Shown here: positions 26,482 to 53,758 of the stretch, one piece after another
Layout of the letters: each line of letters starts with the position of its first letter
Numbering within the stretch: position 1 is the stretch's first letter
From: Mesocricetibacter intestinalis
GTDB lineage: Bacteria; Pseudomonadota; Gammaproteobacteria; Enterobacterales; Pasteurellaceae
Direction: 5' to 3'
Assembly (NCBI RefSeq): GCF_004363295.1
Contig: NZ_SNYQ01000008.1
Coordinates: forward strand, 1-64,000
DNA: 64,000 bases
Program-made: the position numbers and the translations under genes
The notes under the pieces: model-generated
Told to the model about the DNA's origin: nothing
Database searches by the model: none
Seen by the model: the letters and a program-made list of their open reading frames with translations, nothing else

Positions 26482-28089
26482 TTAATCGGCACCGATACCG
26501 GCATCTACCGCCGCCTGCACCACCGGAATTCCGCGCTTATAACGTCGGATAAATTGGCGGTAACCTTCCGCCATGCTCTGATCCGGTGTCGATAAGGTCA
26601 TTTTCACATTATTAAAAATACATTGATCCAGATAATCTTCCAGACTATAACCCTCATTCCGTTTATGCAGGAAACTGGCCAACAAAGCGATTCCCCACGC
26701 CCCGCCGTTTGATGCGGTATTCATAGTGGCAAGGGGAATATTCAGGGCGGAGGAAAGTACCTTCTGGGCAACATTTTCCGTCTTAAAGATGCCGCCGTGG
26801 CCGAGAATACGGGTAATTTCCACTTTTTCCCGTTCGATAAGAATATCCATACCCAGCTTCATTGCGCCAAATGCGGTATACAGATGCACCCGTATAAAGT
26901 TGGCCAGATTAAAATCCGCATTAGTCGGATGCAGGAATAACGGGCAACCTTGAGCCAAGCCCACATTATGTTCGCCGGAATGGAAACCGTAAGCGAGCAA
27001 ACCGCCGCCGTCCGCATCCCCCTGCAACGCATGCAGAAACAGGGTTTCGTACAATTCTTCGGTACAGACTTTCACCCCGAAGGTTTGCAAGGTTTCGCCG
27101 AGCAAACCGACCCAAGCGTTAATATCCGTGGTGCAGTTCTGAGAATGAGCCATTGCCACGGGCTTTCCGGTGGGCGTGGTAACCATATCCAGTTCGGAAT
27201 AAACCTGAGATAAGGCTTTTTCCAGTACGATCATGGCAAAGGCGGAAGTACCGGCGGAAATATTTCCGGTTTTTTCCCGCACGCAGTTGGTCGCAACCAT
27301 ACCGGTTCCCGCATCGCCCTCCGGCGGACATAAAGGAATACCCGCACATAGATTACCGCTCGGATCCAAAAGCCGCGCCCCTTCCGCCGTTAATTTTCCG
27401 CCGCTTTCGCCGGCGACCCGCACCTTAGGTAAAATATCCTGTAAGCGCCAGCCCATATTCAGATGCTGAATCCGACGCTCAAATAAGGCCAGCATATTGC
27501 GATCAAAATCTCCGCTGGCGGTATCGATAGGGAACATTCCGGAGGCATCGCCGATACCCAGTGTTTTCTCCCCGGTCAGACGCCAATGTACATAACCCGA
27601 TAAGGTGGTTAAATAATCAATTTGATCGATATGAGGTTCATCTTTTAAGATAGCCTGATACAAATGAGCGATACTCCAACGCTGCGGAATCGGATAGCGG
27701 AATAAATCGGTTAATTCCTGCGCTGCCTGTAGAGTGATATTATTACGCCAGGTACGAAACGGCACCAGTTGATTCCCCTGTTTATCAAAGGGAAGGTAGC
27801 CGTGCATCATGGCGCTAACCCCAATCGCCTGTGCCTGTCTAATCAAAGTGCGGTACTTTTCTTTAACGGTTTTTTGTAAATCCTGATAGGCCGCCTGTAA
27901 CTTAGCCCAGATTTCTTCCTGAGAATAGGTCCAGATTCCGTTCACTAGGCGGTTTTCCCAGTCGGCGCCGCCGGCAGCCAGAATAGTGCCTCTGTCATCA
28001 ATCAGCACCGCTTTTATTCTGGTCGAACCCAATTCAATCCCGATTACGATTTTTCCGGCTTCAATTAATTGTTTTTCTGTCTGCATCAT
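26482..28089 (-). CDS. FGGY-family carbohydrate kinase
   Basis: A 535-residue sugar kinase of the FGGY family with two actin-like ATPase domains. The first domain holds the phosphate loop (IGIELGSTRIKAVL, residues 17-30). The second holds the Gly-rich ISAGTSAF and ILGHGGIF segments. The first motif has Glu where most family members have Asp. It does not align by eye with E. coli AraB, XylB, LyxK or LsrK from memory, so the sugar is not assigned. It is the last gene of the sugar ABC operon and presumably phosphorylates the imported sugar or its isomerised form. The start may be the second ATG (28086). An uptake core lies at 27846-27854. Confidence 0.85.
   Translation of the reverse strand: MMQTEKQLIEAGKIVIGIELGSTRIKAVLIDDRGTILAAGGADWENRLVNGIWTYSQEEIWAKLQAAYQDLQKTVKEKYRTLIRQAQAIGVSAMMHGYLPFDKQGNQLVPFRTWRNNITLQAAQELTDLFRYPIPQRWSIAHLYQAILKDEPHIDQIDYLTTLSGYVHWRLTGEKTLGIGDASGMFPIDTASGDFDRNMLALFERRIQHLNMGWRLQDILPKVRVAGESGGKLTAEGARLLDPSGNLCAGIPLCPPEGDAGTGMVATNCVREKTGNISAGTSAFAMIVLEKALSQVYSELDMVTTPTGKPVAMAHSQNCTTDINAWVGLLGETLQTFGVKVCTEELYETLFLHALQGDADGGGLLAYGFHSGEHNVGLAQGCPLFLHPTNADFNLANFIRVHLYTAFGAMKLGMDILIEREKVEITRILGHGGIFKTENVAQKVLSSALNIPLATMNTASNGGAWGIALLASFLHKRNEGYSLEDYLDQCIFNNVKMTLSTPDQSMAEGYRQFIRRYKRGIPVVQAAVDAGIGAD
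27846..27854 (+). repeat. DNA uptake signal sequence
   Basis: Exact AAGTGCGGT within the kinase gene, on the non-coding strand of that gene. Confidence 0.7.
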
Positions 28090-28099
28090 GGGTCCTTAC

Positions 28100-29041
28100 C
28101 TATCTGAATAGGGTTCTTTTCTGTAGGAAAATAAACAGGATAAGTAGAGAACCCCATAATATCAGGGTTACATAACTGCTTATACCAATCATATTCAGGC
28201 CGCTTTCCACAATTTGCAGCAGCACCAGTGCCAGCATAATCCCCACCAGTTTTCCTTTGCCGCCGTCCGGATTAATTCCGCCCAACACCACAGCCAGAAT
28301 AGAAATCAGCAAATAAGAATCCCCGTAGGAAGCCTTGGCCGAATTTAACTTGGACATCATCAGTAAGGCGGCGAACATACAGAGCACGGAAGACAACACA
28401 TATACGATAATCTGCACCTTCTTATTATCAATTCCGGAATAAAGCGTCGCTTTCTCATTATTACCGATAAAATAAATCGCTTTTCCCTCGGTGGTTTTTT
28501 CCAAAATAAACCAGACGCATACGAATAAGCACAGAAAGATCAGTACGGGTACGGGAATAAACCAAAGGTGGGAGGCGTTAATACTCAGCACCGCAGAAGG
28601 GAAATTAGCAATGGTGGAACCGTCCGTTACCAGAATATTGATACCATTGACCAGGGTCATGGTTCCCAATGTCGCGAGAATCGGCGACACCCGAATAAAG
28701 GCGATCAGCACCCCGTTAAATAAACCGATCAAGACGGCACAGCCCAAACTCACCAATAACCCGAGCAGAAAATATTCCATACCGGAGTAACGGGTTACAT
28801 AATAAGCGATAATCAGCGCACAGGCATTCATTCCGGCGATAATGGAAAGGTTAATTCCCCCGGTTAACATGGGTATCGCCATAGCCAGCGTTAAGATCCC
28901 CAGCACGGAAATCTGCGAAGCCATAGATTGAAAATTCGCCAGCGACCAGAAAACCTCCGGAATAAGAATACTGAATGAAAGAATGGCAACGGCAAATAAA
29001 ATAAACAGATATTTTATCGAATTATCCTTCAATAATTTCAT
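28100..29041 (-). CDS. Sugar ABC transporter permease (second)
   Basis: A 313-residue inner-membrane permease of the RbsC/LsrC/AraH class with about nine to ten hydrophobic segments. The family motif VLGGINPDGGKGKLVG is near residue 255. The ATG at 29041 is preferred over 29047 because GAGGAA lies 7 nt before it. Either start overlaps or abuts the preceding permease gene. The presence of two distinct permeases suggests a heterodimeric pore, as in LsrCD or RhaPQ systems. Confidence 0.9.
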   Translation of the reverse strand: MKLLKDNSIKYLFILFAVAILSFSILIPEVFWSLANFQSMASQISVLGILTLAMAIPMLTGGINLSIIAGMNACALIIAYYVTRYSGMEYFLLGLLVSLGCAVLIGLFNGVLIAFIRVSPILATLGTMTLVNGINILVTDGSTIANFPSAVLSINASHLWFIPVPVLIFLCLFVCVWFILEKTTEGKAIYFIGNNEKATLYSGIDNKKVQIIVYVLSSVLCMFAALLMMSKLNSAKASYGDSYLLISILAVVLGGINPDGGKGKLVGIMLALVLLQIVESGLNMIGISSYVTLILWGSLLILFIFLQKRTLFR

Positions 29042-29043
29042 AA

Positions 29044-30003
29044 TCATATTCCTCTTGAATTTCTCTGTCCCAGAGCCGTGGCACTGATACTTAAAATAAT
29101 AATGCCCCCGGTAATTACCGTTTGCCAGTAGGAAGATACGTTCAGCAAATTAAGCCCGTTTTGGATAATCGCCAGCAAGGCCACCCCCATTACCGTACCT
29201 GCCAAGGTGCCGCGTCCGCCCGACAAACTCGCACCGCCCAGCACCACCGCCGCCAACACGGTCAGTTCGTAGCCGAGTAACGAATCCGGCGCCACCGACT
29301 GTACCGTATAAGCCTGTACGATGCCGGCCAAACCGGACATCAGTCCCATATAGCCATAAGCCAAAAGATGCAGTTTAAAAATATTAAAACCGATACGAGA
29401 AGCGGAATCCTTACTACCGCCCAAGGCATAAATCTGACGTCCGAGGCTAAGTTTATTCGTCAGCAACCAGGTAATCAGTACCGCCGCACAAGCCAAAATC
29501 GCCTGGAAAGAGAATCCGTATTCCACGCCTTCGGCGCTGACCTGCTTAAACAGTATCATTTCCTCTTGAAACCACTGCGGAAAATCGTACAGCCAAATCC
29601 CTTTGGTGATATACAGCAAAGCGCCATAGAAAATATTTAAAGTAGAAATAGTGATAATAATGGAGGGAACATTAAGTCGGTTGACAATAACCGCATTGAC
29701 AAAACCCAATAACACGCCGCTACCAAGGGAGATCAGTAAGGCCGCGAATAATCCCACATCAAACTGTGAGATAAAGGAAATCATAATATATTGGGTGATA
29801 ATCGTAATCGCCGGAAAAGAAATATCAATTCCGCCGGACAATAATACGATAAACAGGCCGCAGGCCAGAATCATCAGCATGGAATAGTTATTAATCACGT
29901 CGTATAAATTTTCCACACTGAAGAAATCGTCGGTAAACAGGCTTAGCAGAACGAATAAGATAAAAAGGGTCGCAAATAATATTTTATTATTTAGTGTTTT
30001 CAT
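29044..30003 (-). CDS. Sugar ABC transporter permease (first)
   Basis: A 319-residue RbsC-type inner-membrane permease. It has the characteristic LLSGGIDISF segment (about 55-64) and the EAA-like loop VLGGASLSGGRGTLAGT (about 254-270). It overlaps the ATPase gene by 17 nt and has GAGGAG 7 nt before the ATG. It pairs with the permease encoded immediately downstream. Confidence 0.92.
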   Translation of the reverse strand: MKTLNNKILFATLFILFVLLSLFTDDFFSVENLYDVINNYSMLMILACGLFIVLLSGGIDISFPAITIITQYIMISFISQFDVGLFAALLISLGSGVLLGFVNAVIVNRLNVPSIIITISTLNIFYGALLYITKGIWLYDFPQWFQEEMILFKQVSAEGVEYGFSFQAILACAAVLITWLLTNKLSLGRQIYALGGSKDSASRIGFNIFKLHLLAYGYMGLMSGLAGIVQAYTVQSVAPDSLLGYELTVLAAVVLGGASLSGGRGTLAGTVMGVALLAIIQNGLNLLNVSSYWQTVITGGIIILSISATALGQRNSRGI

Positions 30004-31477
30004 AAATCATCTCCTCAATATATTCCTCGCTAACTTCCTGCGGAAGAATATCGCCGATAATACGACCTTTTTTCATCACTAAAACCCGGTGGCTGTAATA
30101 ATAAGCCTCCTCTACCTCATCGGTAACAAAAATCACCGCAATCCCCTGTTCGGATAAAGACTGCACGATACGGAAAATCCCTTCTTTATTGGCGATATCC
30201 ACCCCTATGGTAGGCGAATCCAGAATAATCAGTTTAGGATTAATCGCCAGCCATTTCGCAATAGAAACCCGCTGTGCATTACCCCCGGAAAGGGTATTTA
30301 CCGGTAAATCGGGATCCGATACCTTGATTTTGAGCGAACGGATCAAATCGTCGCTGTATTTATAGGCTTTTTTATTGTCGATAATTTTGTATTTATCGGA
30401 AATTTTATTAAAAATGGCGGAAATAATATTATTGTGAATGGACTCCGGCATAATCAGGCCGGTACTCATTCTGTCTTCGGAAACATAGGCAATACCTTTA
30501 GCAATGGCATCGCGGTTGGTATTCAGGCGAAGTTTTTCGCCATTCAGAAAGATTTCTCCCTGTTCGGGCTGAGTAATACCGAACAAGCTTAAACAAAGCT
30601 CCGTTCTGCCGGAACCTAATAATCCGGTGAGCGCCAAAATTTCCCCTTCCCGTACGGAAAAGGAAATATCCTTATACTGGTTTGCCCGTGAAAGATTTTT
30701 CACTTCCAAGAGGTTTTTCTTAGCGCTAAAATCCGGTAGCGGCAAGCGCTGATAATCAATTTCCAGTCCGGTCATCAAAAAGCCCAGACGTTTCTCATCG
30801 ATTTCTTTAATCGGGTATTTACCGATCATATTACCGTCTTTCAGTACCAGCACGTTATCGGAAACCTTCATCACTTCTTTCAGTTTATGGCTGACAAAAA
30901 TAATGCTGATGCCTTTACTCTTCAATTTCAGCACCAGTGCCAGCAAATCCTTGACTTCCTTTGCCGTCAGCGAAGCGGTAGGTTCGTCCATAATCAGTAG
31001 TTTCGCATTCTGAGCCAGAGCACGGCAAATCGCCACCAATTGCTGTTCGGCCACGGGCAGATTTTCTACATTTTCATTTAAATCCAAACTGGCATTAATA
31101 CTTTCCAGTACGTTTTGCGCAATTTCATATTGTTGGCGTTTATTCACCAAACCGAATTCTCGGTAAGCATTGATGGCAATATTTTCCGCCACGCTCAGAT
31201 TCGGGAATAACGCAAGATCTTGATAAATCACCTGAATCCCTTTGGCAATAGATTCTTCGGGTTTCAGTTTGGAATAAGTGCTGGCGCCAATCTGAATTTG
31301 CGCCCCTTCATCGGGTTGATAAACACCGGAGAGAATTTTAATCAGCGTTGATTTGCCGCAGCCGTTCTGTCCCGCCAGGCATAGCGCCTCACCGTAGTTT
31401 AACGATAATTCCACCTGATTAAGCGCTTTTACCCCGTTGAATGTTTTGCTGATATTCTGCATTGTAATGAATGTCAT
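29987..31477 (-). CDS. Sugar ABC transporter ATP-binding protein (double ATPase)
   Basis: A 496-residue protein with two fused nucleotide-binding domains, as in RbsA, MglA and LsrA. Domain 1 has Walker A GQNGCGKST (about 39-47), the family LPVAEQQL segment in place of a strict signature, and Walker B LLIMDEPTAS. Domain 2 is degenerate: its P-loop is GLLGSGRTE and the catalytic Glu is replaced in LIILDSPTIGVD, while its signature LSGGNAQ is intact. This asymmetry is normal for the class. It energises import from the cytoplasmic face. Confidence 0.94.
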   Translation of the reverse strand: MTFITMQNISKTFNGVKALNQVELSLNYGEALCLAGQNGCGKSTLIKILSGVYQPDEGAQIQIGASTYSKLKPEESIAKGIQVIYQDLALFPNLSVAENIAINAYREFGLVNKRQQYEIAQNVLESINASLDLNENVENLPVAEQQLVAICRALAQNAKLLIMDEPTASLTAKEVKDLLALVLKLKSKGISIIFVSHKLKEVMKVSDNVLVLKDGNMIGKYPIKEIDEKRLGFLMTGLEIDYQRLPLPDFSAKKNLLEVKNLSRANQYKDISFSVREGEILALTGLLGSGRTELCLSLFGITQPEQGEIFLNGEKLRLNTNRDAIAKGIAYVSEDRMSTGLIMPESIHNNIISAIFNKISDKYKIIDNKKAYKYSDDLIRSLKIKVSDPDLPVNTLSGGNAQRVSIAKWLAINPKLIILDSPTIGVDIANKEGIFRIVQSLSEQGIAVIFVTDEVEEAYYYSHRVLVMKKGRIIGDILPQEVSEEYIEEMIYENTK

Positions 31478-31533: not shown

Positions 31534-32508
31534 TTAATATAATTTATCTATGTTTTCCTGCGTAACTCTCAATACGTTATGGAATTGAAGCAGTTTTTTC
31601 TCTTTATCGACCTTAGCTTTACCTACGCCCGGAATTTCCAGACCTTCTTCAATTTTTTCGCCTTTCAGCACTTTTGCCGCTACGGCGGCTAAAGCATATC
31701 CCGCGCTGGCCGGATCATAGGTAATTCCCATGGTAATATTGCCGCTCTTGATCAAAGAAGCTGCCTGAGAAGGAATCATCATACCGAAAACATGTAATTT
31801 TCCTTTCAGACGTTTTTCTTTCACCGCCAGTCCGGCACCTATAGGTCCCTGGGAACCGAATGAAATCACCGCCTTAAGATCCGGATGGGCTTTCACCAAA
31901 TCAATGGTGGTGCGGCGGGCATCATTAATATTTTCCGCTACCGGCATTCTGCTGGTAACTTCAAACATATCCGGATAATGTTCTTTCTGATATTTCACAA
32001 ACAGATCTGCCCACAGATTGTGCTGAGGTACGGTTAAACCGCCTACATAAAGCACATAACCGCCTTTACCCCCTAAAGATTTCGCTACTTCTTCCACATA
32101 GTCGGCGGCGAACTGAGCGTTATCAATAACTTCGATATCCCAGTCGGCACTCGGCTGCCCTACGGATTCGTTGGTCAGCACCACAATACCGTTTTGCTTG
32201 GCTTTTTTCAGTACCGGTTCCAACGCGCTGGCGTCATTCGGTACGATCGAAATGGCGCTGACTTTCTTCGCGATCAAATCCTCAATCAATTTAACTTGCT
32301 GAGGCGCATCTGTATTGGAAGGCCCGACCTGATAAGCATTAACATTGTTATCCTTACCCGCCTGAACGACCCCTTCCGCCATGCGGTTAAACCAAGGCAT
32401 ACCATCGATTTTGGAAATATTGACGATATCTGCAGCCATCGCCTGCCCATAGCAAGCCAAAGCAAAAATTCCGGTCAGGAACATACGTCCGAATGTTGGT
32501 TTTTTCAT
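31534..32508 (-). CDS. Periplasmic sugar-binding protein
   Basis: A 324-residue periplasmic binding protein of the RbsB/LsrB/RhaS class (type 1 PBP fold). It begins with a signal peptide (about 1-25, ending AMAADI), so it is exported. The first lobe contains KIDGMPWFNRMAEGVVQAGK and the middle contains ISIVPNDASALEPVLKKAK. Ligand residues cannot be assigned by eye. It is the first structural gene of the operon, just downstream of an AraC-like regulated promoter and followed by a stabilising hairpin. Confidence 0.92.
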   Translation of the reverse strand: MKKPTFGRMFLTGIFALACYGQAMAADIVNISKIDGMPWFNRMAEGVVQAGKDNNVNAYQVGPSNTDAPQQVKLIEDLIAKKVSAISIVPNDASALEPVLKKAKQNGIVVLTNESVGQPSADWDIEVIDNAQFAADYVEEVAKSLGGKGGYVLYVGGLTVPQHNLWADLFVKYQKEHYPDMFEVTSRMPVAENINDARRTTIDLVKAHPDLKAVISFGSQGPIGAGLAVKEKRLKGKLHVFGMMIPSQAASLIKSGNITMGITYDPASAGYALAAVAAKVLKGEKIEEGLEIPGVGKAKVDKEKKLLQFHNVLRVTQENIDKLY

Positions 32509-32614
32509 AAAAAATTCCTCGTAGAATGAACGGTTTTCTATCTTTAAAACACCAGCCTTCTCTCCCTTAACAAGGGGTAAAAAGCCCTGTTTACACCATT
32601 AAAGATGGGCAGAT

Positions 32615-32704
32615 CTTATACCCTGAAGGTAAAAAGACCATGTAACTTTTCGTTACTCGTATGGAATATTCCGCTATACTTCCGGAACTGAGAAGCAGAT
32701 CACA
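32615..32704 (-). promoter_or_regulatory. araBAD-like promoter: CRP site, two AraC-type half-sites, -10
   Basis: Reading the minus strand downstream of the regulator gene, four elements occur in order. First is TGTGATCTGCTTCTCA (32689-32704), a CRP-type TGTGA-N6-TCtCA site. After 12 bp comes TAGCGGAATATTCCATA (32660-32676), which matches the TAGC-N7-TCCATA pattern of E. coli araI1. Exactly 21 bp along is the weaker TAACGAAAAGTTACATG (32639-32655), in the position of araI2. A -10 TATAAG (32615-32620) then starts 35 bp from the second half-site (37 bp in E. coli). There is no good -35, as expected for an activator-dependent promoter. Confidence 0.8.
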
Positions 32705-33559
32705 TTAGCCGTTTTCTCTTTGTTGCGTATTTCTGAAACGCGCGGGAGAAACGCCCTGATATTTTTTAAATACCTTGGAAAAATACAGCGCATCTTCATA
32801 CCCGAGGGATTTTGCAATCTTATTGACGGACATATCGGAGAAGTACAACAGCTTCTTCGCCTCGGCGATACGCTGCATATCACGCCATTGCACCAAGCCG
32901 ACGCCCAAAGCTTGTTTAAATAGATGGGACAAACGGGATTCGGATAAATAAACTTTATCGGCAAAATATTGAACATTGTGTTTTGCCGCCGGATTCGCCA
33001 GAATCAAATCACATACCTTTACTATTCTGCTATCTAGAGGAGGGGCGATTTCAATTTGTTCGACCGAAACGCATTTCATCAGCAAATATTCCAATAGGCT
33101 GGCCGCCATCGTTTGCTTAAGGGGATGCGAAGATTTCAGTTCTGTTTCCAGCTTGGTAAACAACTGGCTGATTTCCTGAAAATATTGATTGTCGCCAAGC
33201 TGAATCCGACCTATTCCCCGTACGGTATTTGACCAGTTCAGCCATTTCAGCCAGCGGGAAGGGGGAGAAAAATACACCCATTTATAATGCCAGAACTGAT
33301 ATTCCGGCTGCCGGTAATAATGATGAGCCGCCTTAGGCGAAAACAGTAAAAGTTGACCTCGTTGCAACGGCAGCCTATCACTACCGTCGAACATAAAGCC
33401 TTTGCCGAAAGTCGTCAGCTGCAGCATATAACCTTCCATTCCTTCCGCCCGATCAACCGTAAAATCCAGATCATTCCCTTTTTCACATTGGGTGATGCCA
33501 GCAACCACTTCCGCACGAAACGCATGGATCGGGGATAAATTCAGATTGTTCGGTAACAT
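32705..33559 (-). CDS. araC: AraC-family arabinose-type transcription regulator
   Basis: A 284-residue regulator that resembles E. coli AraC along its whole length, not only in the DNA-binding part. The arm and cupin domain include LDFTVDRAEGMEGYMLQLT, and WVYFSPPSRWLKWLNW follows. The C-terminal region has two helix-turn-helix motifs (YLSESRLSHLFKQALG, and IAKSLGYEDALYFSKVFKK). The start at ATG 33559 gives the family length; an in-frame ATG 18 codons earlier would add an unrelated extension. Its own gene ends at the CRP site of the transporter promoter. An L-arabinose or related pentose effector is likely but not proven. Confidence 0.85.
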   Translation of the reverse strand: MLPNNLNLSPIHAFRAEVVAGITQCEKGNDLDFTVDRAEGMEGYMLQLTTFGKGFMFDGSDRLPLQRGQLLLFSPKAAHHYYRQPEYQFWHYKWVYFSPPSRWLKWLNWSNTVRGIGRIQLGDNQYFQEISQLFTKLETELKSSHPLKQTMAASLLEYLLMKCVSVEQIEIAPPLDSRIVKVCDLILANPAAKHNVQYFADKVYLSESRLSHLFKQALGVGLVQWRDMQRIAEAKKLLYFSDMSVNKIAKSLGYEDALYFSKVFKKYQGVSPARFRNTQQRENG

Positions 33560-33702
33560 ATACTGCCGCTTCTTTAATTTTGAGGAGAAACATTCGGATG
33601 CCGCCGCAAACATGGCAACGACAGAGTAAATTTAAAATAATATCCTCCGCTTTAGCAACAAATTTCTGCTATAATTCCTGCGCAAAAACTCGGATGAAAA
33701 TG

Positions 33703-33733: not shown

Positions 33734-34414
33734 ATGCTGCAAGCCATCATCTTCGATATGGACGGAGTAATTGTAGATACGGAGTTTTTCGAATTTCAAT
33801 TGCAAACCCGCTTTATTGAAACCTTGCAACAACATCACCGGCCGCTTCCGCCGGAACGGCGTGCGGCACTGATCGGCTGTTCGTTGCCACAGATTCCGGC
33901 CATCATTAAAGAACTAAGCGGTTCTCCTTTAGCCTTGGAAGAAATCGAGCATCGCTACCGACAATTTTTCCACGAAATTTTCAGCCATGTCGATTATCCA
34001 TCCATCTTCCGTCGCGATATCCTGCACATCATCGAATATGCCGAAGCCAATAAAATTAAACTGGCGGTAGCCTCCTCCTCCGCCTTAAAACATATTGAAA
34101 CCATTTTAACCGCTTGCGGTATTTATCAGCGTTTCGATCTGATCCTGAGCGGAGAAATGTTTCAGGAGAGCAAACCCAATCCGGAAATCTATCTGCGAAC
34201 CTTGGAACATTTAGGCGTTCCCGCCGCTCATGCCGTAGCCGTCGAAGATTCCAGCTACGGTATTATGGCGGCGCAGGCGGCCGGTATTCAGGTTATCGCT
34301 TATGAAGAAACCCGGATGCCGGTAGATCAGTCTGCGGCACAAGGCAAGGGGAAAAATATGCGCGAAATTTTATCCCTTATCCGCCGTTTACATGAGGATA
34401 AAAAACAGGGTTAA
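33734..34414 (+). CDS. HAD-superfamily phosphatase / beta-phosphoglucomutase-like
   Basis: A 226-residue HAD subfamily IA hydrolase. Motif I is DMDGVIVDTE (residues 8-17) with the nucleophile Asp and acid/base Asp, motif II is the VASSS segment near residue 116, and the later motifs are SKPNPEIY and VEDSSYGIMAAQAAG. The helical cap inserted after motif I is of the beta-phosphoglucomutase/phosphatase type. The substrate is not known. It is divergent from the araC-like gene, so a sugar-phosphate substrate is possible, but the position may be coincidental. Good ribosome site (AAGGAA). Confidence 0.88.
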   Translation: MLQAIIFDMDGVIVDTEFFEFQLQTRFIETLQQHHRPLPPERRAALIGCSLPQIPAIIKELSGSPLALEEIEHRYRQFFHEIFSHVDYPSIFRRDILHIIEYAEANKIKLAVASSSALKHIETILTACGIYQRFDLILSGEMFQESKPNPEIYLRTLEHLGVPAAHAVAVEDSSYGIMAAQAAGIQVIAYEETRMPVDQSAAQGKGKNMREILSLIRRLHEDKKQG

Positions 34415-53128: not shown

Positions 53129-53758
53129 TCAACTTTCAAAAATCAGCGGTGCATCGGTACGCGCAATAACCTCTTCTTGAGTAACGCCCGGAAACATTTC
53201 TTTCACCACAATGCCTGCAGGCGTAATCTCAAATACGCCGAGTTCCGTAACTATGGTATCCACCACTTTATAACCGGTAAGCGGCCAAGTGCAGGTTTTC
53301 AAAATTTTCGCCGCTCCGTTTTTAGCATTATGCTCCATAGCAACAATCACCCGTTTAGCGCCGGATACCAAGTCCATGGCGCCGCCCATTCCCATAATGC
53401 GTCCGCCCGGAATACTCCAATTGGCGATACTGCCTTCGGAATCCACTTGTAAAGCACCCAGTACCACGGCTGTTAACTTACCGCTACGTACCAGTGCAAA
53501 TGCGCCGGCGCTGTCGGAAACCGATGCGCCCGGCAATAAAGTAACAATCTGGCCGCCCGCATTCACATAATCGGGTTCCTCCTCGCCGGGCTGCGGTGAA
53601 CCGCCATACCCCAAAAGACCGTTTTCCGCATGCAGTTGTACGCCGTCAACAATATAATTACGGACAAGACCGGGAATACCGATACCTAAATTAACTACAT
53701 CGCCGGCCTGAAAAAAACTGGCAATTTTTTCTGCGATAAGCGCTTTTGCATCGGACAT
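53129..53758 (-). CDS. 3-oxoacid CoA-transferase, beta subunit
   Basis: A 209-residue beta subunit of the AtoA/ScoB type. It carries the catalytic glutamate in the ENGLLGYGG segment (residue about 47) and the conserved GGAMDLVSGAKRVIVAMEH. With the alpha subunit it moves CoA from an acyl-CoA (such as acetyl- or succinyl-CoA) to acetoacetate or a related acid. The start ATG 53758 is 8 nt after GAGGAG. An ATG two codons earlier overlaps the alpha-subunit stop as ATGA, so the two are coupled either way. Confidence 0.92.
   Translation of the reverse strand: MSDAKALIAEKIASFFQAGDVVNLGIGIPGLVRNYIVDGVQLHAENGLLGYGGSPQPGEEEPDYVNAGGQIVTLLPGASVSDSAGAFALVRSGKLTAVVLGALQVDSEGSIANWSIPGGRIMGMGGAMDLVSGAKRVIVAMEHNAKNGAAKILKTCTWPLTGYKVVDTIVTELGVFEITPAGIVVKEMFPGVTQEEVIARTDAPLIFES

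Follow-up and report, generated by a model that had tools for sequence, protein, structure and literature searches.

The window, that is, the whole 64,000-nucleotide stretch of Mesocricetibacter intestinalis DNA that was analysed, belongs to a 2.21-Mb genome rated 100% complete, from a member of the Pasteurellaceae, a family of animal-associated bacteria. An operon was found that lies entirely on the minus strand and encodes, in order of reading, a regulator, a sugar-binding protein, an ATPase, two permeases and an FGGY kinase. The regulator gene and the genes behind it stand in tandem on the same strand, and the divergent layout of K-12 is absent. The features are as follows.

32705 to 33613, minus strand: AraC-type regulator, 302 amino acids when counted from the first ATG, although translation probably begins at 33559; NCBIfam NF007860 (AraC), with AraC structures as best PDB matches
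32689 to 32704, minus strand: CRP-type site TGTGATCTGCTTCTCA, directly 3′ of the regulator stop codon, 9 of 10 consensus bases
32660 to 32676, minus strand: araI1-type half-site TAGCGGAATATTCCATA, matching all 10 fixed bases of TAGCN7TCCATA, as does K-12 araI1
32639 to 32655, minus strand: second half-site TAACGAAAAGTTACATG, in a 21-bp register from I1
32613 to 32618, minus strand: -10 element TAAGAT, 37 bp from the start of the second half-site (also 37 in K-12), at an aligned position conserved in relatives
31534 to 32508, minus strand: periplasmic sugar-binding protein of the AauA/RblA type, best PDB match 9i1m, 71% identical over 315 residues to O157:H7 AauA, with six D-ribulose contact residues kept
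29987 to 31477, minus strand: sugar ABC transporter ATPase, 57% identical to the O157:H7 aau ATPase
29044 to 30003, minus strand: ABC permease 1, 62% identical to an O157:H7 aau permease
28100 to 29047, minus strand: ABC permease 2, 60% identical to an O157:H7 aau permease
26482 to 28089, minus strand: FGGY kinase (FGGY_N and FGGY_C domains), last gene of the operon, of the type that adjoins araA in Pasteurellaceae and Clostridium, as judged from identities and a kinase tree

The kinase gene is followed by a convergent gene that forms part of an apparent urease cluster (urease accessory, named by eye), and the operon therefore holds no isomerase gene of the rblI type; no isomerase or epimerase gene adjoins it. 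A HAD hydrolase gene (33734 to 34414, plus strand) was considered as a member of the system and rejected, as it lies on the opposite strand and matches general phosphatases. The sequence-only reading had described a double-permease transporter, an FGGY kinase unlike AraB, a lack of isomerase or epimerase genes nearby and a neighbouring regulator that resembles AraC over its full length. Each of these descriptions held at the operon: two permease genes are present, the kinase bears little likeness to E. coli AraB (39.7 bits against a ribulokinase model, with a cut-off of 428), and the regulator belongs to the AraC family (342.7 bits, with a cut-off of 208). That reading did not include two features that, from the comparisons below, are assigned to the system, namely a transporter of the Aau/Rbl type and a regulator pocket unlike those of L-arabinose sensors.

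Promoter layout and its conservation

The 196-bp spacer between the regulator stop codon and the start of the binding-protein gene holds the promoter, which reads on the minus strand as TGTGATCTGCTTCTCA, 12 bp, TAGCGGAATATTCCATA, 4 bp, TAACGAAAAGTTACATG. Measured with the same ruler, the CRP-to-I1 gap, the half-site register and the distance to the -10 element are 12, 21 and 37 bp in the window, compared with 13, 21 and 37 bp in K-12 araBAD, so that a CRP site, I1, I2 at the 21-bp register and a -10 element about 37 bp from the I2 start are all in place. The arrangement of sites that had been reported earlier, including the 12-bp versus 13-bp gap, was thus reproduced, with every element on the minus strand. 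A -10 element was also correctly expected, but the hexamer chosen for it (TATAAG, 32620 to 32615, at 35 rather than 37 bp) was not the right one, since the relatives conserve TAAGAT at 37 bp. As judged from these sites, the promoter of the araBAD plan is real, and the earlier observation is confirmed.

Taken by itself, the I1 motif is not enriched: it has five matches with at most one mismatch in the window (two of them exact) compared with 3.1 expected, and, together with the following TA, 18 matches in the whole genome compared with 16 for the reversed pattern. Its use to find a genome-wide regulon was dropped for lack of an excess over the reversed control. The second exact TAGCN7TCCATA in the window (53323 to 53339, plus strand) has no CRP partner at the right distance and is probably due to chance. 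The pair of sites behaves differently: a CRP site (at least 8 of 10 bases) and I1 (at least 9 of 10) separated by 11–14 bp occur together once in the 64-kb window, at the operon promoter, whereas 300 first-order Markov simulations gave an expectation of 0.0033 such pairs per 64 kb.

Conservation is stronger evidence for the promoter than this chance estimate. The spacers between regulator and binding-protein genes were collected from 34 operon loci and the window, several loci from separate searches being the same genomes, and removal of identical sequences left 24 distinct promoters. The CRP-to-I1 gap is exactly 12 bp in all 24, the window included; the half-site register is 21 bp in 22 and 22 bp in the two from genomes G010 and G012; and a -10-like hexamer, with five variants accepted, lies at 37, 38 or 39 bp in every one. 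In the alignment, motif columns vary less than the columns between motifs, and the I1 columns are strongly conserved. Pasteurellaceae arabinose operons share the 12-bp gap (9/9 loci tested), although certain individual sites in them match poorly, at 7 of 10 fixed bases. The second half-site begins with TAAC in 19 of the 24 operon-type promoters, as opposed to TAGC or CAGC in nine arabinose promoters and K-12.

EHEC aau has a CRP site, 11 bp, I1 and then a TAAC-type second half-site at +21. Among the Enterobacteriaceae regions that precede the transporter where no kinase is linked (EHEC included), six of seven carry CRP-like and I1-like sites 11 bp apart, L153 being the exception; about four of these six are independent, since L168 and L169 represent one genus with the same site, and L171 and EHEC are nearly identical. 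In a shuffle control, 0 of 400 sequences reached the lowest score of the six regions; the control used single-base shuffles of five of the seven regions at gaps of 11–13 bp, and the real regions were searched at gaps of 10–15 bp. A third, araO2-like half-site common to all loci was not found within about 1.5 kb by a weight-matrix scan, which carried no validation on K-12 araO2. The best additional scores fell at differing places in different loci, and no such site is claimed; close relatives (Rodentibacter L002, L003 and L010; also G010 and G012) share weak sites, which are mostly inside the regulator gene.

Transporter, kinase and the distribution of araA

The best solved relatives of the binding protein are 9i1m (E = 1.2e-148) and 3d02. 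The former was deposited as EHEC AauA with D-ribulose, and AauA was reported to bind D-ribulose with a KD of 1.98 µM and L-arabinose with a KD of 598 µM, a more than 200-fold preference for D-ribulose (PMC12307932, available in part). The contacts with D-ribulose named in that source, K37, W43, E118, H167, E196 and S223, are all kept in the window protein and in 56/56 aligned rows, in which repeats of a species are included. With an AauA-like binding protein that carries all six contacts, the window transporter is assigned to the Aau/Rbl type.

The kinase is 69–76% identical to kinases of the same operon type, with the exception of the one at L019 (62%), and 63–66% identical to kinases that adjoin araA in seven Pasteurellaceae loci; three Clostridium relatives also lie in loci with araA and araD. 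From this placement, the family is seen to take the ribulokinase position in Pasteurellaceae arabinose operons, and the kinase is therefore not foreign to pentose metabolism. The sequence-only reading had proposed that the promoter logic is conserved and the regulated enzymes differ. This is supported in part: the plan is indeed conserved and the genes do differ, but the kinase, although unlike E. coli AraB, is of a family that adjoins araA in Pasteurellaceae arabinose operons. In Actinobacillus succinogenes, the putative ribulokinase was reported to share no more than 20% identity with its E. coli counterpart (PMC3091790, available in part), and Asuc_0489-94 is probably an arabinose operon of the Pasteurellaceae kind. 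AraK of C. acetobutylicum, a possible member of the family, was named a ribulokinase (PMC3507653, available in part).

A kinase tree was built from 43 rows (loci up to L033 or from L082; rows with fewer than 500 aligned residues or with internal stops were dropped). Twenty rows formed one group (99), made up of 18 kinases of the operon type, including that of the window, and those of two Pasteurella loci without the transporter. In these two loci, from Pasteurella oralis and P. canis (L009:8839-11599; L017), the kinase gene adjoins a transaldolase gene, and no transporter or regulator match was found in the stretch fetched around it. The kinase of G010, whose operon includes araA, was placed with the arabinose-operon kinases (support 82–86). 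The kinase of Necropsobacter massiliensis (L019) grouped on a long branch with a kinase from an arabinose operon (support 97) and was thus perhaps recruited separately; the operon of this species (L019/L128) is of the D-ribulose type, and of the seven pocket positions its regulator differs at His93 alone. No match to the kinase was found beside the transporter in the four Enterobacteriaceae genomes sampled, and none was listed there in two Klebsiella plasmids.

A search for araA and araD elsewhere in the genome had been suggested as a check. No araA (PF02610), as would be expected to accompany an L-arabinose operon, was found in the window genome; the same model was positive in 5 of 14 control genomes, E. 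coli among them. One araD-type gene, for an L-ribulose-5-phosphate 4-epimerase of the UlaF/AraD type, is present in an apparent ascorbate (ula) cluster, partly named by eye. This ula-like cluster (L137, G000:C1:13000-31000) has epimerases of the UlaE and UlaF types and lies close to an apparent cluster for four-carbon acid sugar catabolism (named by eye).

A survey of 140 family genomes found a match to the regulator (E ≤ 1e-40) in 50, the regulator (46–100% identity) next to an Aau-type transporter in 26, and AraA in 32. Nineteen of the 26 genomes with the linked regulator and transporter lack araA and seven have it. In two of these seven (G010 and G012), araA lies directly 3′ of the kinase gene, and AraC, Aau-type transporter, kinase and araA form one operon (L118 and L119), which means that an Aau-type transporter can accompany arabinose use; the G012 ATPase and kinase are in pieces, owing to breaks or assembly errors. 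The other five (G044, G116, G125, G127 and G131) possess a second, less similar AraC match.

Two genomes without araA, G035 and G036, each have an operon (L120 and L121) in which the Aau-type transporter is joined by a dedicated AraC and a kinase of the AraB type. This kinase, which stands in place of the usual one, is 60–61% identical to E. coli AraB, and that of G035 passes the ribulokinase cut-offs. Behind the G035 operon lies a fucose cluster (fucI and fucK), of which no counterpart was found in the stretch from G036. The transporter and AraB-type kinase are the pair that EHEC uses for D-ribulose, here within one gene cluster.

Sensor pocket of the regulator

The residues of AraC that form the L-arabinose pocket were taken to be P8, T24, R38, H80, Y82, H93 and W95 (E. 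coli numbering). AraC variants with changed effectors were mutated at P8, T24, H80, Y82 and H93 (PMC6350385, PMC5669015; both available in part), which supports the role assumed for these positions. The pocket string is NTRHYYW in the window regulator and PTRHYHW in E. coli; P8 and H93 are changed, so that the full set of L-arabinose pocket residues is not present. Regulators were compared from 34 loci and the window (26 distinct sequences) and from 11 arabinose loci (10 distinct sequences). PTRHYHW was found in all ten distinct arabinose-operon regulators and in the four from G010, G012, G035 and G036, giving 14 that are linked to araA or AraB; for the ten, the araA link lies within the fetched locus in seven cases and within about 3 kb for L109, L110 and L112. 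The other 22 operon-type regulators all differ from this string, and His93 is absent from every one of them (Tyr in 19, Phe in two, Ser in one).

The 15 sequences with the arabinose pocket, that of E. coli among them, have 44 invariant positions in the sensor domain; of these, position 93 alone is altered in 22/22. Six of the 44 are changed in most of the 22, and three of these six are pocket positions 8, 80 and 93, an enrichment for the seven pocket positions that a hypergeometric estimate by hand puts at about 0.04. The DNA-binding domain has 26 such invariant positions; one differs in most of the 22 regulators and none in every one. When the pocket columns were left out of the tree, the 22 regulators still formed one clade (90/63; 89% of bootstrap trees). 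They therefore do not count as 22 independent tests, and the pocket change probably arose once, in a common ancestor. These findings suggest that the effector changed and that the operator plan did not. G035 and G036, which keep the arabinose pocket in the absence of araA, appear by comparison to fit the EHEC arrangement better than a switch of effector.

Proposed function and comparison with known systems

The best explanation, which we regard as probable from the sequence comparisons, is that the operon serves the import and phosphorylation of D-ribulose in the manner of Aau and Rbl, under the control of a diverged AraC relative. The periplasmic protein would capture D-ribulose for import by the ABC transporter, and the FGGY kinase would make D-ribulose 5-phosphate, which would enter the pentose phosphate pathway directly. 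It is proposed that the operon has no isomerase or epimerase because a kinase suffices for the use of D-ribulose. The AraC-type regulator, whose gene immediately precedes the others on the same strand, would bind the two direct-repeat half-sites next to the -10 element and, together with CRP, recruit RNA polymerase, as at araBAD. The changed pocket (His93 to Tyr, with P8 lost in the window) makes D-ribulose or a closely related sugar, and not L-arabinose, the most likely effector. In relatives, AauA was shown to prefer D-ribulose, EHEC aau to need AraC, and the Rbl kinase to be needed for growth on D-ribulose (PMC12307932, in the part available). The promoter geometry, the absence of araA, the likeness to AauA, the EHEC aau promoter, the G035/G036 pair, the kinase next to transaldolase and the pocket all speak for D-ribulose. 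Against it stand the kinase relatives with pathway context, which sit in arabinose operons and are not known D-ribulokinases, the araA of G010 and G012, UlaF, and the confinement of the pocket change to one clade.

The main rival substrate is L-ribulose (or another ketopentose), which the kinase would convert to L-ribulose 5-phosphate and the UlaF of the ascorbate pathway to D-xylulose 5-phosphate. Such a route would suit a kinase whose family holds the ribulokinase place beside araA and a genome that has the UlaF/AraD-type 4-epimerase, and no test of AauA with L-ribulose was found in the part of PMC12307932 available. The epimerase, however, sits in another operon, the ula cluster, all six AauA contacts for D-ribulose are kept, and C. 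rodentium rbl was reported without response to L-ribulose (PMC12307932, in part), so that this route is considered unlikely. Less probable still is an L-arabinose uptake operon that has lost araA and araD and whose regulator senses L-arabinose to this day. The NCBIfam name of the regulator, an I1 with all fixed bases of the araBAD site and the sister version with araA in the operon (G010 and G012) are consistent with it, but the genome has no araA, AauA binds L-arabinose weakly (KD as above; PMC12307932, in part), and H93 is changed in all 22 regulators of the clade, in contrast to the 14 distinct Pasteurellaceae sequences with an araA or AraB link, which have the E. coli string. The lowest probability is given to a split of the EHEC kind, with L-arabinose as inducer and D-ribulose as cargo. 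EHEC aau works in this way (PMC12307932, in part), and the arabinose pocket is retained in G035 and G036 even though these genomes have no araA; the window regulator, however, lacks H93 and P8, and the inducer could not be used through araA in M. intestinalis.

A further possibility, judged somewhat less likely than not, is that D-ribulose replaced L-arabinose as the effector in a natural clade of AraC relatives by pocket substitutions of which that at His93 is the central one, with hardly any alteration of the operator plan, the CRP site or their spacing; the operon would then derive from an arabinose operon of the G010/G012 type after loss of araA. AraC is a model sugar switch, and here a natural clade has altered three of the positions used in its engineering (8, 80 and 93) in most of 22 members under a nearly constant promoter layout, which makes the pocket idea directly testable in an E. 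coli K-12 reporter. A relative of the textbook arabinose switch, with its layout intact and its pocket altered, probably governs D-ribulose uptake and use here, which would give a D-ribulose system with its own regulator, whereas C. rodentium rbl has no linked one. In a genome that lacks araA, the NCBIfam name AraC would lead to wrong predictions about arabinose. No earlier description of such a D-ribulose operon in Pasteurellaceae was found among the top-ranked matches in the open-licence PMC literature.

Growth of C. rodentium on D-ribulose requires RblABCD and the kinase RblK, and rblI is dispensable; the rbl genes were described as having no linked regulator (PMC12307932, in part). The window operon resembles Rbl in that ABC transporter genes are followed by an FGGY kinase gene in one operon, and differs from it in that Rbl has the added isomerase gene rblI and no linked regulator. 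In EHEC, L-arabinose induces aau by way of AraC, and AraB serves as D-ribulokinase (PMC12307932, in part). The EHEC Aau binding protein is 71% identical to that of the window and the other subunits 57–62%, and the AraC-dependent aau promoter is of like geometry; unlike the window operon, EHEC Aau has neither a kinase nor a regulator of its own and relies on AraC and AraB (PMC12307932, PMC11127945; both in part). With E. coli araBAD and AraC, the window shares the layout of CRP site, I1, I2 and -10 element and a regulator that passes the AraC model, whereas its regulator is in tandem, araA is missing, the pocket is altered and no family-wide third half-site was found. The Pasteurellaceae arabinose operons (L011-L016 and L018) share the kinase family and, in those tested, the 12-bp CRP-to-I1 gap; unlike the window operon, they have an AraGH-like transporter and araA, and their regulator keeps PTRHYHW.
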